This document shows, piece by piece, positions 30,691-47,836 of a stretch of 64,000 nt of DNA (its first letter is position 1; every line of letters begins with the position of its first letter). This stretch comes from Parapedobacter sp. SGR-10. GTDB lineage: Bacteria; Bacteroidota; Bacteroidia; Sphingobacteriales; Sphingobacteriaceae. Where the stretch lies: assembly GCF_011030405.1 (NCBI RefSeq), contig NZ_JAAJTJ010000003.1:124001-188000 (forward strand). The letters are read 5' to 3'. A program made the position numbers and the translations under genes. The notes under the pieces are model-generated. The model saw nothing but the letters and a program-made list of their open reading frames with translations. It had not been told where the DNA came from and did not search any database.

Positions 30691-30845
30691 ACAATTTAAA
30701 AATTTAAAACGTTAAACCATAAATTGTATTCAGAAATCGTAAGGGAAAATAAGCGTTTTTGCAGACGTTTATTTTGGCTTTTACACCCGTATTATTTTAC
30801 CACCGCGGTGACTGCACTCGGTTGGTATTGCACATGCAATTCTGA

Positions 30846-30875
30846 ATACTCTACAAATATAGTAGAGTATTTTTG
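30846..30875. terminator. Hairpin upstream of the toxin-antitoxin unit
   Basis: Perfect nine-base arms ATACTCTAC/GTAGAGTAT with T5 on the plus side. No plus-strand gene ends just before it; 30691-30845 has no gene that I can support. It may insulate the TA operon. Confidence 0.6.
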
Positions 30876-40619: not shown

Positions 40620-41006
40620 TTAAACGCTGTTTTTCTTGAAAGTTAAGTTTTGCATCGCTGTCCGGATCTGCTTTCCGGCATGGAACAACAATCGGCTGCT
40701 CGTGATGTTGGCGCCCGTTACTTCTTCCTCTAGCTGGCTGCCCTGACTTTTGGTGCTCAGACGGAACGAACCCATATTGCCCAGGCGTACGATGTAGCCT
40801 TTGGATACGTTGCGCGGGATCTCCCGTACCAGACTCTGCAATACGGCATATACATCGGCTTCGGTGATCGATGAAGCGTGCGATATGTCTTCCGCCAGTT
40901 CTTCCAGACTGATTTCGCCTGCATGTACAGGACGTGCGTAAAACTTTTTCGGAGCGTTGGGATCCCCCGGATTGCCAATCTCCTGGATGTTGAATTTAAT
41001 TGCCAT
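40620..41006 (-). CDS. HU-family DNA-binding protein (Bacteroidota long form)
   Basis: Histone-like protein of 128 residues. The extended N-terminus (MAIKFNIQEIGNPGDPNAPKKFYARPVHAGEISLEELAEDI) marks the Bacteroidota variant, which is longer than classic HU. The core has SITEADVYAVLQSLVREIPRNVSKGYIVRLGNMGSFRLSTKS, then a C-terminal helix. Genomes of this group carry many such paralogues, often in accessory regions. It should bend or coat DNA; target specificity is unknown. Confidence 0.88.
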   Translation of the reverse strand: MAIKFNIQEIGNPGDPNAPKKFYARPVHAGEISLEELAEDISHASSITEADVYAVLQSLVREIPRNVSKGYIVRLGNMGSFRLSTKSQGSQLEEEVTGANITSSRLLFHAGKQIRTAMQNLTFKKNSV

Positions 41007-41186
41007 AATCGTAAAAATTAAGCGTTTATAAAATGATTGTCCTTTGTCCCGGACGGTACCATTTCCGATGACAGGATAAAGGTAGGTGATGCTGCAAATA
41101 GGTCTGTCGTTTTTGACGCTTTTGTCGCAATTGGCGTTTTTGTCGTTTTCTATGAAAAAATCGTGGATGGGAAGGTGAATGGATTT

Positions 41187-42799: not shown

Positions 42800-43000
42800 A
42801 TGGAAATATCTCTAAAAAGATTGGCTGTTTATCCTTCGGATCTGCAAAGGATAACGGGGCAGAGTGTCCGCACCTGCCAACGTCTCCTCAATAAGATCCG
42901 GGATATGTTTGGATTGGATAAAGGTCAGCATGTCACCATCTACCAGGCATCAGAGTATCTTGGTATTCCGGTGGTAGACATGTCGAGATTTATCCGTTAA
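42800..43000 (+). CDS. Small HTH-like protein (66 residues)
   Basis: The protein MEISLKRLAVYPSDLQRITG continues QSVRTCQRLLNKIRDMFG and HVTIYQASEYLGIPVVDMSRFI. The region from YPSDLQRITGQSVRTCQRLL looks like a helix-turn-helix, and the end (TIYQASEYLGIP) is like small Bacteroidota DNA-binding proteins of mobile elements. Name and target unknown. It is followed by a conserved motif and a 13-base hairpin at 43021-43085 that may end its transcript. Confidence 0.6.
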   Translation: MEISLKRLAVYPSDLQRITGQSVRTCQRLLNKIRDMFGLDKGQHVTIYQASEYLGIPVVDMSRFIR

Positions 43001-43020
43001 AAAAACCAAATACTGGCAAA

Positions 43021-43085
43021 CGGTGTTGTCGGGCAGCAAGAACGGAAGAAAAGAACACAATTCCTTAGGGTTATTGTGTTCTTTT
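43021..43085 (+). terminator. Conserved motif leading into a hairpin, copy 1
   Basis: 43021-43049 agrees at 24 of 29 positions with 46141-46169 (core TTGTCGGGCAGCA). Perfect 13-base arms follow, 43049-43061 and 43073-43085. It could terminate the small HTH gene or be the end of a small RNA. Confidence 0.55.
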
Positions 43086-43347
43086 CCTATTAGACCGTGC
43101 AGATAGACTTACCAAAAAGATATTTATGCTGTGGGTGGCAAAACTCATATCTGGAAAAGCGGTGGATTTCTAACAACTACAGTTGGCTTTACAGTGGCTA
43201 GAAAACTTTTGAATCGTGTTGACTGATCGAGGAGCTGAAAAAAGTAGGCAAATAGATTAGCTTTTATAGGGAAAAATATATAGGCATAGCTTACCTTTGT
43301 GACATTAATACTATTCGTTTTTAGCTTTTTTGTTAAAAGAGCAATCA
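43086..43347. other. Gap before the ClC gene
   Basis: No gene is supported. TACCTTTG (TAnnTTTG) at 43292-43299 is the probable -7 box of the ClC gene, 48 bases before its ATG. No convincing -33 element was found. Confidence 0.5.
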
Positions 43348-45144
43348 ATGCAAGGTAAATATTATCGTTATATCGACCGACTGAACAAATGGAGAATGCA
43401 ACGGATATCCAATCGGAATTTTTTGGTACTCGTTGCTGTTCTGGTAGGTGTGATCGGTGGACTGGCGGCTGCGGCCCTGAAAGGTCTTACACATTCTATT
43501 GCCGCTTTTCTACAGGATGAGGTACAGTCGCAATATAAGTACTACATCTATCTGCTTTTTCCTTTGATCGGTATCTTGCTGAGTGTGATCTATGTACGTC
43601 GGTTTGTCCGGAAAGGAAAATTTGAACACGGCATGACGCCGATCATGTATTCCATATCGAGAAACTCCAGTAAGATAGAGCCGCACAATGTCTATTCGCA
43701 GATCATTACCAGTGCTATTACCGTGGGTTTTGGAGGTTCGGCAGGGTTGGAGGCGCCTATTGCTTATAGTGGGGCAGCCATAGGTTCCAATGCAGGACGT
43801 TTTTTTGGCTTAAGTTATCGGGAGGTTACCTTATTGTTGGCGTGTGGAGCGGCCGCAGGCATAGCCGGGGCATTCAACAGCCCCGTGGCGGGAATGATCT
43901 TTGCGATTGAAATCCTGCTGCCGGAGTTTTCTATCCCTGCTTTTATCCCATTGCTGATATCGACTGCTACAGCGGCGGCTATCTCTCGTTCGCTGTACAG
44001 TGAGCCGTTATTCCATTTGGTCACGGATGACTGGGTGTTTCAGGCTCTATTGTTTTATGTGATCCTGGCTATCTTGATAGGAGGTTTTTCTATTTATTTT
44101 GCGCGTCTTACGGTATGGGTAAGGTCTATATACGCCAAGATTACCAATCCATATCGCAAAGTATGGATTGGTGGTATCGGTCTGGGGATTTTGATTTTCG
44201 TGTTTCCGGCATTGTATGGTGAAGGGTACCTGACCATCCAGCAGATTTTGGATGGCAAACACCAGGCTATTATTTCAAACAGTATTTTTTCGGCGTATAG
44301 CCATTCGGGGCCATTCCTTTTGCTCTTTGTCATTGTCACTGTTTTTGCCAAATCTTTTGCTTCGCTGATCACATTGAATAGCGGTGGCAACGGTGGCGTC
44401 TTCGGACCTAGTCTGGTCATGGGCGGCTTGTTGGGGTTTGCATTTGCGTATGGTGTGAACTTGACAGGTCTTGTAGAGCTGAATATCGCCAATTTTACGG
44501 TCGCTGGTATGGCGGCAGCATTGAGCGGTATCATGCATGCTCCTCTGACAGCTATATTTCTGATTGCAGAGATCACGGGAGGATACGCACTGATGGTTCC
44601 CTTGATGCTGGTCACAGCTATAGCTTACCTGATCAACCGTGTGGTCATGAAGCATTCGATCTATACGAAGGTTTTGGCCGAAAAAGGAGATCTCCTAAGC
44701 CATGAAGACAAAGACCGTACCGTGCTGAGTATGATGAGACTTAAGTACGTATTGGAGAACAATTTTACGATCTTGAAGCCTGAGGAAACTCCTGTGGATC
44801 GTCGGCACGATATCATCCATACCAAGAGAAATATTTTTCCTGTAGTGGACGATGGAGGAAAATTATTGGGGATTATTTATAGCGAACGTTTATTTGAAGT
44901 ATTGCTCGGTGAGAAACCTGAAGGTCAGGCCAAGAGCATGCGTGAATTGATGGAAAAACCTACCGATATGGTGACTATAGAGGCCAACATGGAAGATGTC
45001 ATGCAGAAAATGAATCGGGAAGATGTATGGATACTTCCTGTTGTCGATAGGGATGGTATCTATAAAGGATTTGTTTCTAAATCTGCGGTATTTAATAAAT
45101 ACAGGGCTTTATTGATGAGACAAGCTGCGTATTTTGACCAATAA
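43348..45144 (+). CDS. ClC-family chloride channel/antiporter with CBS domains
   Basis: Membrane protein of 598 residues (ATG at 43348; the TTG 18 bases earlier is less likely). The ClC core spans about 20-440 with many helices. Selectivity motifs are visible: GFGGSAGLEAPIAYSGAAIGS in the GxxGxEGP position (Glu kept, but GLEAP instead of GREGP) and NSGGNGGVFGPSLVMGG (GxFxP). The C-terminal 150 residues hold two CBS domains (NIFPVVDDGGKLLGIIYSERLFEVL and DVWILPVVDRDGIYKGFVSKS) that likely sense nucleotides. Channel or proton-coupled exchange is not decided by sequence. Single gene. Confidence 0.93.
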   Translation: MQGKYYRYIDRLNKWRMQRISNRNFLVLVAVLVGVIGGLAAAALKGLTHSIAAFLQDEVQSQYKYYIYLLFPLIGILLSVIYVRRFVRKGKFEHGMTPIMYSISRNSSKIEPHNVYSQIITSAITVGFGGSAGLEAPIAYSGAAIGSNAGRFFGLSYREVTLLLACGAAAGIAGAFNSPVAGMIFAIEILLPEFSIPAFIPLLISTATAAAISRSLYSEPLFHLVTDDWVFQALLFYVILAILIGGFSIYFARLTVWVRSIYAKITNPYRKVWIGGIGLGILIFVFPALYGEGYLTIQQILDGKHQAIISNSIFSAYSHSGPFLLLFVIVTVFAKSFASLITLNSGGNGGVFGPSLVMGGLLGFAFAYGVNLTGLVELNIANFTVAGMAAALSGIMHAPLTAIFLIAEITGGYALMVPLMLVTAIAYLINRVVMKHSIYTKVLAEKGDLLSHEDKDRTVLSMMRLKYVLENNFTILKPEETPVDRRHDIIHTKRNIFPVVDDGGKLLGIIYSERLFEVLLGEKPEGQAKSMRELMEKPTDMVTIEANMEDVMQKMNREDVWILPVVDRDGIYKGFVSKSAVFNKYRALLMRQAAYFDQ

Positions 45145-45156
45145 GTTTTTGCTATG

Positions 45157-45324
45157 GTGATATATATTGGTGTAACTAAGTTTTATCGTCATTTCGAACG
45201 AAGAGAGAAATCTATAGAAAGGCCAATCGTTCTACTTAACCATAGATTTCTCCTCGTACCTCGTCGAAATGACGGTTTAATTAATAGGGTTTTATACCGT
45301 TTGGTAGGTAAGTATATAATTACC
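45157..45324. repeat. Family A dispersed hairpin repeat, copy 3, with extended flanks
   Basis: Core 45187-45274 (CGTCATTTCGAACGAAGAGAG... to CCATAGATTTCTCC...GAAATGACG). The flanks match copy 2 on both sides. It lies between the convergent ClC and SRPBCC genes. A 61-codon plus frame inside it is spurious. Confidence 0.88.
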
Positions 45325-45417
45325 TTTGCTATTTTATAATGGAAAATATTGTCTGTTGTCAAAAATAATCCAAAACAAAGATGCCCACCCCCATTAGGAT
45401 GTGACTTTTTTACAGTT

Positions 45418-45867
45418 TTACTTTTCGCAAATTTCCTTCAGACGATTCAATGCTTTGGGATAGGTCTTGTCAAAATAAGCAATGAAATCGGGTGTGGTGT
45501 CTAAATCTACGGTAACCGTGGTGACGCCATCCTTTTCCTCATACGTATAGTTTTCAAATCCACCTGCCCATTTTTCGACCTGTTCTCCTTCCGTGATTTC
45601 TTTGCCGTCGTCCAGTATACCGTAATGGCGAATGGAGACAAATCGATGGGGGATATGCTCGGCAATTTCAGAAACCATGCCGCCCTTTTTGCCCTCTTCG
45701 TCGATTCCGGTAAAGTAGATTTTATCTCCCTTGCCCCAACTTCCTTCAAAATCGGAAGTAGGTTCAAACTCCGCTGTCCAGAGTTTGTAGGTGTCTTTGC
45801 CTAACATGAGTTCTGTTACTTTGGCGGCAGGAGCATTGATGTCGATTTTATATTGCAGTCGTTCCAT
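45418..45867 (-). CDS. SRPBCC (START-like) domain protein
   Basis: Protein of 149 residues with the helix-grip fold of SRPBCC/AHSA1 proteins: it starts MERLQYKIDINAPAAKVTELMLGKDTYKLWTAEF, has WGKGDKIYFTGIDEEGKKGGMVSEIAEHIPHRFVSIRHYG in the middle, a TTVTVDLDTTPDFIAYFDKTYPKAL strand-helix end. No signal peptide, so cytoplasmic. These proteins bind hydrophobic ligands, but the ligand is unknown. Monocistronic. Confidence 0.9.
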   Translation of the reverse strand: MERLQYKIDINAPAAKVTELMLGKDTYKLWTAEFEPTSDFEGSWGKGDKIYFTGIDEEGKKGGMVSEIAEHIPHRFVSIRHYGILDDGKEITEGEQVEKWAGGFENYTYEEKDGVTTVTVDLDTTPDFIAYFDKTYPKALNRLKEICEK

Positions 45868-45886
45868 GGGGTACTAATTTAAAGTT

Positions 45887-46050
45887 ACGAAGTTATGGTG
45901 GTGACAAAGGTTACATTGGTTATAGAGGCCATGAGCCTCCGTCACTTTATTTTAAAGTTATGTAAGTTATCAAGGTGAAGTAGGTTATGAAGGTATGCTT
46001 TCCGCCCTCATAACTACATCACTATCATCACCTCCGTCACTTTGTTTTAA
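45887..46050. repeat. Degenerate 9-base tandem repeats, two blocks
   Basis: Block 1 from 45887 reads AGTTATGGT, GGTGACAAA, GGTTACATT, GGTTATAGA in 9-base steps and ends GTCACTTTATTTTA. Block 2 from 45951 repeats this plan with AGTTATGTA, AGTTATCAA, GGTGAAGTA, GGTTATGAA, then turns to the opposite strand to end GTCACTTTGTTTTA. The block at 18155-18216 is related. No gene lies in 45868-46294. Confidence 0.65.
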
Positions 46051-46140
46051 AAAACACAAAAAATTCAATAGCTAAATTTATCAACTTATCCGGAATAAAA
46101 AATTGCCATAGGACAAGAAAAGATAGTTCGACAAGGTAAA

Positions 46141-46217
46141 CCGTATTGTCGGGCAGCAGCAATGGAAGAGGGAGTCTCCTACATTTGCTTGAAACAAACA
46201 TAGGAGACACTTCCATT
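46141..46217 (+). terminator. Conserved motif leading into a hairpin, copy 2
   Basis: 46141-46169 is the second copy of the TTGTCGGGCAGCA motif. The stem pairs AATGGAAG with CTTCCATT and GTCTCCTA with TAGGAGAC (46160-46217) and runs into T6 on the plus strand, although no plus-strand gene lies upstream. Confidence 0.6.
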
Positions 46218-46294
46218 TTTTATAGATTGTATATTTATGTTACATTCTCTCCGTAGCGTAATAGCCTAAGGAGCAACACGGAGGTATAAAAACA

Positions 46295-47836
46295 TCAATT
46301 GATCTGTACCGGTAATGTGATTATTTCCGGGTAGAAGCCTCCCTGAAAGTCCTGTACTTCCAGAATAATCTCGTCCGTAGTATGCTGTACATCCAGATTT
46401 CGCAAGTATTTCACTACACCCTGTCGTAACTGTTCTTGCGTAAATGAGCCTCTCTTTCGAAGCGGTCTCCCATTGACCAACACAACTCCCTTTTGAGTGT
46501 CTTCTGAAAGGAAATAGGAAATATTCTTATCACTGGCCCCGGTACCTTGCAGGTTGGTTTTGTCTATTACCTTGAAAAAATCAGCTGAACTTATATTTAC
46601 CGCGTTGACGGTGACGTTTGTGATAATAGTTTCGGGGGTACTTTCGAAAAGGATGTAACTTTTATTGTTAGCAGCATTGGCATGTCCCAGGTGTCCGAAA
46701 TAAACGTTGGGGGAAGACTGGCTCCATACACCGATGTTGACAAAATCCTGATTGTTTTCAAACGCCTGCAATACCGCACGGCTCACATCGGAGGCAAACC
46801 ATTTGTTGCTGTTGCCTGTGCTCGGTATCGAAAAACTGGATTCGAGTTCTCCCATTGCCGGCAAATCGCTGTAACTGGTCGTGCTTTCCTCCCAATCTGT
46901 ATACGCATCGGCATACACATTGATGAGGCTTTCGCTTACACCACTAGCATTGGAAGTTCTGGTATGATAGAGCATTAGCGTAGCACTTCCCAATCTTTCT
47001 TCAAACTCCGGTTCTCGGATTTTATACTGCATGTACAATCTTCTCGTTCCCGTGTTATTGATAGTGGATGCCATCTTCGTTTGAAAATTATCTCCTGTAG
47101 GGTTGATCACTTGATAGCCTGCCTGCGAACTGGCAAACTGTAACAAGACATCTTTTTCGACAAATACGCTGTCTTTACTGAGCTCTAGGTCGTCCGGTTT
47201 GGGATCTTTTTGGCTGCTGGACCGAACGGTATAGGTCGGCATCGGAACCACATGGCCAATCGCATTTTTAAAAGGCAGATCCCGCGATCTTACGGTCACA
47301 GAAGCAGAGGCATATCTGCTCACGGCATTTACCCGGAGAACATACGGATTGGTCGTCGAGCTTTCGCGTCTGAAAAACAAGCTGTCTCCTGTAAGGGACT
47401 CAAATCCCTCATCTTTGCCAACTTCAAAATCCGCCACCTGATATTTGTGTTGGATTATATTATTCAGAATAAAATGCCGCAGAACAGGACGGGGTACTTC
47501 TTCCAGGGAAGTATAGCCATAACCGGTAATCAGGCTGTTCATGGCGTCGTCATTAAAAATCACAATTGTAAAATTGTCGTTCGGATTGTCTAGGAACTCT
47601 TCTAGCCCTGCTAGTCTTACAGCCTGTGCATATAGTTTCAACTGGCTATAGCGGTCTGACTGTTGATAGTCATTAGACTTGATAAATGCGGCAAACGTTG
47701 CATTTTTGGTGTTCTCACCTGCAGGAACCAAGTCCATATCTTCGTCCTTTAATAACTTGAATTTCTCACACCCTATGAAAAGTAATAACAGAGAAATTGA
47801 TAAAAGTTTTAAAGATGTAATGCCTAATTTTTTCAT
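46295..47836 (-). CDS. FAS1 (fasciclin) lipoprotein with CBM96/DNRLRE-like domain, PUL 2
   Basis: Surface lipoprotein of about 513 residues. The ATG at 47836 (MKKLGITSLKLLSISLLLLF) gives a normal signal and lipobox FIGC; a TTG four codons earlier is less likely. Residues about 55-205 are a fasciclin-like domain (LAGLEEFLDNPNDNFTIVIFNDDAMNSLI, NAIGHVVPMPT). Residues about 235-400 look like a CBM96/DNRLRE beta domain (TRRLYMQYKI, VNVYADAYTDWEESTTSYSDLP-like segment, WFASDVSRAVLQAF, NKSYILFES). The rest is a Big-type tail. It follows susD, so it is probably a surface glycan-binding protein. Confidence 0.75.
   Translation of the reverse strand: MKKLGITSLKLLSISLLLLFIGCEKFKLLKDEDMDLVPAGENTKNATFAAFIKSNDYQQSDRYSQLKLYAQAVRLAGLEEFLDNPNDNFTIVIFNDDAMNSLITGYGYTSLEEVPRPVLRHFILNNIIQHKYQVADFEVGKDEGFESLTGDSLFFRRESSTTNPYVLRVNAVSRYASASVTVRSRDLPFKNAIGHVVPMPTYTVRSSSQKDPKPDDLELSKDSVFVEKDVLLQFASSQAGYQVINPTGDNFQTKMASTINNTGTRRLYMQYKIREPEFEERLGSATLMLYHTRTSNASGVSESLINVYADAYTDWEESTTSYSDLPAMGELESSFSIPSTGNSNKWFASDVSRAVLQAFENNQDFVNIGVWSQSSPNVYFGHLGHANAANNKSYILFESTPETIITNVTVNAVNISSADFFKVIDKTNLQGTGASDKNISYFLSEDTQKGVVLVNGRPLRKRGSFTQEQLRQGVVKYLRNLDVQHTTDEIILEVQDFQGGFYPEIITLPVQIN

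Follow-up and report, generated by a model that had tools for sequence, protein, structure and literature searches.

Do the two copies of a short motif in the genome of Parapedobacter sp. SGR-10 belong to a small RNA family, as an earlier note proposed? The window, here the whole stretch of 64,000 nucleotides that was analyzed, contains the motif at 43021-43049 (copy 1) and at 46141-46169 (copy 2). The agreement claimed for these two segments was confirmed by the alignment count, 24 of 29 positions being identical, and the ungapped match extends to 43015-43049 and 46135-46169 on the plus strand, with 29 of 35 bases identical. Folding also bore out that both copies lead into strong hairpins, and the T6 said to end copy 2 is indeed found on the plus strand, at 46216-46221. 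In 20 simulated windows of the same length (first-order Markov), no direct pair of this quality (29/35) appeared. The real window has nine direct pairs at this level, the copy 1/copy 2 pair among them; the remaining eight look like three gene paralogs and five pairs from one dispersed repeat. The inner parts of the hairpins found 3' of copy 1 and copy 2 are unrelated to each other, as they would be if two unrelated terminator leaders were similar by chance; the simulations speak against such a coincidence.

Outside these two places, the motif is rare. A 26-base core with up to three mismatches occurs in a single genome of the 93-genome genus set, namely this one, in two copies. The genus is taken to be Sphingobacterium, since the sequences of four genus-mates are identical to those in named Sphingobacterium records; Parapedobacter genomes were searched as a separate set. 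A core pattern with 20 fixed bases gave no match in the species collection, from which records very near that of the window may be omitted. The genome has 10 other near matches (one mismatch) of the 13-base core TTGTCGGGCAGCA, all of them within open reading frames that are 179 codons long or longer.

Copy 1 starts just past the stop codon of a 66-codon gene (42800-43000, plus strand) encoding a small helical protein. The AlphaFold model has a mean pLDDT of 91.5, and its predicted helices suggest a possibly HTH-like product. No Pfam or NCBIfam family matched the small protein, and the fold search returned nothing at E 0.001. Matches to a TAL effector profile were taken as a repeat artefact, since no stretch passed singly. 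Behind the gene, all on the plus strand, three parts can be delineated. Hairpin 1 is proposed at 43013-43032, in the same place as behind the orthologs, with 7 bp including two G-U pairs (CTGGCAA/TTGTCGG). The linker GCAGCAAGAACGG occupies 43033-43045. The last part, at 43048-43086, is a terminator-like hairpin visible by folding, with an outer stem of 14 bp and a T-rich part in its 3' arm. As the T-rich stretch sits within the stem, this is not a textbook terminator. Hairpin 1 is absent from the lowest-energy fold of copy 1.

The layout of copy 2 is similar, without the 66-codon gene. A relic of the small gene upstream of it was considered and rejected, the local score being reached by 238 of 1000 and by 342 of 500 shuffles. 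The fold was read from 46112. On the plus strand, folding and comparison place hairpin 1 at 46128-46152, with 7 bp (TCGACAA/TTGTCGG), or 9 bp if 46126-46154 is taken; the folded linker GCAGCAGC occupies 46153-46160, and the terminator, identified from sequence and folding, occupies 46161-46221, with a basal stem AATGGAAG/CTTCCATT followed by T6. The 5' arm of hairpin 1, TCGACAA (46128-46134), differs from the arm of copy 1 at three positions, at each of which the pair is retained by G-U. This arm lies 5 bases upstream of the counterpart of the copy 1 arm in the 35-base match, and the loop is longer; hence, different bases pair in copy 1 and copy 2. A terminator consensus scan, which covers loops of 3-8 only, flagged neither copy.

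The loop of the copy 2 terminator is filled by a palindrome, GTCTCCTA..TAGGAGAC, at 46174-46208, which has relatives in this genome and in the genus. By the author's count of distinct places, the palindrome (GTCTCCTAYRTTTG..CAAAYRTAGGAGAC) occurs at eight places in this genome, copy 2 counted, and it is present in nine of 39 other genomes searched. Its places include L019, L026, L029, L032 and L035. In genome G004, all five places border a repeated element on one side; the reading frame of that element resembles a transposase, which we take to be of the IS110 family. In copy 2, the palindrome appears to have been inserted into the loop of an older terminator. The recurrence of this hairpin interior at seven other places in the genome and its position at the edge of the IS110-like element are what would be expected if the two copies were traces of a mobile or recombination element, such as a REP-like palindrome or an insertion sequence end. 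The same likeness connects it with REP sequences that serve as insertion-sequence targets, as described in PMC1525189; unlike the sequences presented there, the 35-base motif lies outside the repeated palindrome. Dispersed REP-like sequences have many intergenic copies, whereas the 35-base motif has two only, in one of 93 genomes, its core pattern is absent from the species collection, and copy 1 carries no such palindrome. An origin of the two copies as a repeat at the DNA level is thus improbable.

The element behind the small gene is also found in relatives. Some match to the small protein is present in 37 of the 93 genus genomes. Matches of 63-86% identity were regarded as close orthologs, together with a partial one in G013 (58%, residues 31-66), and those of 42% or less were excluded. 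This leaves 17 loci, one per genome: that of the window, four in Parapedobacter, those of SGR-19, S. haloxyli, S. gobiense, SGG-5 and G013, and seven in other genus-mates. By eye, 10 of the 17 loci have, after the stop codon, a short hairpin separated by an unpaired stretch from a terminator hairpin; these are, besides copy 1, the four Parapedobacter and five genus-mate loci; the seven loci where this layout is absent all belong to the other genus-mates. A T-run is present in the nine layout-bearing loci other than copy 1. The element is intact in G013 although the protein match covers the C-terminal half only. In SGR-19, S. haloxyli and S. gobiense (L146-L148), the element is immediately followed by imperfect tandem repeats (CAACACGAAT.. 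units).

The unpaired stretch carries GCAGC(A/G) in seven of the 10 elements, the variants being ACAGCG in P. luteus, GCAGAG in SGR-19 and AACAAC in SGG-5. Both strands of the window together contain 54 GCAGC(A/G) sites; a fitting stem precedes all three sites in the two copies and one of the 51 elsewhere. The position 3' of the stop codon, the T-runs of the relatives and the seven close orthologs that manage without the module would all agree with an ordinary mRNA end, that is, with hairpin 1 and the terminator just stopping transcription and protecting the 3' end, while copy 2 would be a duplicated remnant, either functionless or stopping read-through. This explanation is a serious one, but the recurrence of the GCAGC stretch in two genera counts against it.

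A different kind of array lies nearby. On the minus strand at 41104-41145, upstream of the HU-HIG gene (40620-41006), there are five 9-base units CGnCAnnnn, then GGTACC at 41055-41060. In three Parapedobacter (L142, L143, L145) and at several genus-mate loci, comparable arrays lie in the stretch that separates the small gene from the HU gene. The three-unit pattern occurs at one place in this genome and in 11 of the 93 genus genomes including this one, not always beside the HU gene; its reversed control matches two genomes. Possibly a regulator binds to this array. The idea that the element pairs with the start of the HU gene was rejected: copies 1 and 2 were at shuffle level, and in Parapedobacter, where 20, 8 and 2 of 300 shuffles reached the observed values, the self-complementarity of the hairpin confounds the comparison.

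Over hairpin 1 and the linker, copy 1 is 66, 66, 69 and 77% identical to P. koreensis, P. luteus, P. composti and P. pyrenivorans, respectively; out of 300 shuffles, 8, 4, 2 and 0 did as well, so that this part is conserved across two genera. In the same four comparisons, neither the terminator nor the 100 bases on the 5' side of the gene did better than shuffles. This is the reverse of what a plain terminator would predict, and conservation of hairpin 1 and the linker rather than of the terminator points to a role beyond termination. Together with the empty result of the 20 simulations, the conservation above shuffle level also disfavors a chance similarity of the two copies, and the layout and linker recur behind the small-gene orthologs; such a coincidence is highly improbable.

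When 11 elements, among them copy 2, were aligned by hand, all seven positions of the 7-bp core of hairpin 1 were paired in seven elements; one mismatch is found in each of SGR-19, S. haloxyli and G013, and two in S. gobiense. Two pairs are changed on both sides (ACCGACC/GGCCGGT vs. ACTGACT/AGTCAGT). In a MAFFT alignment of seven elements from other species, pairing holds for 88.9% of cells, with a covariation score above that of 500 of 500 shuffles. Seven of 18 pairs are changed on both sides, but 54 of 500 shuffles have at least as many; for further pair types, 483 of 500 reach the observed count. Hairpin 1 accounts for two of these seven pairs and is paired in 78.6% of cells. Independent events are few, because the aligned sequences form two clades. 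For copy 1 and the four Parapedobacter elements, RNAalifold recovers hairpin 1, though with a register that pairs poorly in copy 1 itself. Among the lowest-energy folds of 10 single sequences, hairpin 1 is present in copy 2, P. luteus, P. pyrenivorans and SGG-5, partly present in SGR-19 and S. haloxyli, and missing in P. koreensis, P. composti and S. gobiense, as in copy 1.

Three models were used for searches. A sequence-only model of the two copies (R1) gave no further match better than E 0.04 in the 93 genomes under strict filters. A second model (R2), built from seven other-species elements with the terminator, recovers two elements that had been held out, that of P. composti at E 8e-17 and that of SGG-5 at E 1e-6. 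On the window, it places copy 1 at rank 6 (E 0.11), and copy 2 is unlisted up to E 10. At E 0.1, R2 has matches in 97 of 301 genomes of the family; the best 30 matches comprise seven with 67-93 bits, which are this element located 3' of the small gene, and 23 with 27-42 bits, which resemble plain terminators. Weak second matches were found in G058, G060 and G181. The third model (R3) consists of hairpin 1 and the linker, with copy 1 in the training set. Copy 2 comes second on the window (E 0.11) and is unlisted up to E 1 on the whole genome; the elements of the five genus-mates were all missed. Within Parapedobacter, R3 gives a single strong match in each of four of nine genomes and weaker ones at E 0.036 or above, and a second strong match is found in none of the nine.

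No Rfam 15 family reached its gathering threshold on either copy, and in the region 42980-46300, Rfam gave three chance-level matches (E 2-5), none of them on the copies. The matches above threshold in the window are a tRNA and a SAM-I/IV riboswitch, both elsewhere; the riboswitch lies at 30760-30854 on the minus strand.

The argument that no plus-strand gene precedes copy 2, so that its transcript must start in the gap, needs correction: the nearest plus-strand gene on the 5' side, a ClC gene, ends at 45144, about 1 kb away with a minus-strand gene in between, and read-through from it into copy 2 is possible. A dispersed hairpin repeat (ATCGTCATTTCGAACGAAGAGAGAAATC...) was noticed at about 19797, 33982 and 45158, one copy being directly behind the ClC gene. 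Between the minus-strand gene at 45418-45867 and copy 2, a 21-base direct repeat, 95% identical, is located at 45936-45956 and 46031-46051, with starts 95 bases apart.

The weak promoter proposed for copy 2 found no support. Its TTG, placed at about 46113, actually lies at 46103-46105, and the -7 element TAGTTCG (46124-46130) overlaps the 5' arm of hairpin 1. Since the start deduced from the position of this -7 element would be near 46137, such a promoter would exclude the arm from the transcript. The Bacteroidetes promoter consensus is TTTG/TANNTTTG; the best match of this type before copy 2 is TAAATTTA at 46073, with a poor upstream half, and the promoter scans revealed no convincing promoter before copy 2.

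Taken together, the idea of a small RNA family stands in part. A like-built element with compensatory changes does exist behind orthologs in other species, but this evidence comes from the orthologs of copy 1, not from stand-alone copies. Likewise, the compensatory changes anticipated in other copies were found among the ortholog elements of copy 1; the strong matches elsewhere, never more than one to a genome, follow the small gene, and copy 2 is therefore not the typical form. The reading tentatively preferred here is that of a conserved 3'-UTR module, the putative source of a short RNA acting via GCAGCA, with copy 2 as an orphan copy of the module. Copy 1 would form the structured 3' end of the mRNA of the 66-codon gene, with hairpin 1, an unpaired GCAGCA linker and the terminator-like hairpin, and copy 2 would be the second copy without a gene, its terminator loop filled by the palindrome that occurs elsewhere. 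The module would yield a short RNA with a protected 3' end, freed from the mRNA at copy 1 and transcribed alone from copy 2, and the exposed GCAGCA stretch would pair with target mRNAs. A GCAGC stretch exposed between two hairpins would suit the pairing segment of a small RNA. Confidence in this reading is lowered because the fold of copy 1 itself and the whole-genome search with R3 oppose it. The ordinary mRNA end, which gains from the missing promoter of copy 2 and from its poor scores with models from the relatives, is nearly as likely.

Known small RNAs of Bacteroides offer a comparison. PMC7366714 describes 21 UTR-derived small RNA candidates in Bacteroides thetaiotaomicron, a species that according to the paper has no obvious Hfq or ProQ; one 5' and one 3' example were confirmed by northern blot. 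Like the 3'-UTR-derived ones described there, the present putative module is found downstream of a coding gene, with which it would have the terminator in common; those candidates are defined by a start or processing site seen in RNA-seq. The intergenic GibS of Bacteroides (PMC7366714) is also comparable, since an RNA transcribed on its own, with a terminator and a conserved segment left unpaired, would act in a similar way; in GibS, however, the single-stranded pairing segment is at the 5' end, and the unpaired part of the element is between two hairpins. Copy 1 and its nine relatives lie in the 3' region of a coding gene, as 3'-UTR-derived small RNAs do, and copy 2 does not. Conservation of sequence and structure beyond the terminator was found in the lineage of copy 1 and is weak for copy 2.

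Among the papers listed from an open library, judged for Sphingobacterium by title and opening of the abstract, none dealt with small RNAs in Sphingobacterium or Parapedobacter. A further-reaching proposal, rather unlikely and weakened by the same two findings as the preferred reading, is that the module represents a small-RNA family outside Rfam, attached to the end of a small-protein gene in Parapedobacter and in some Sphingobacterium, with copy 2 as a freed second gene sharing GCAGCA. If this were true, the two copies would be a sibling pair midway between a 3'-UTR RNA and an independent sRNA. A confirmed transcript would open a way into RNA regulation in Sphingobacteriaceae and would exemplify how a 3'-UTR RNA turns into its own gene.
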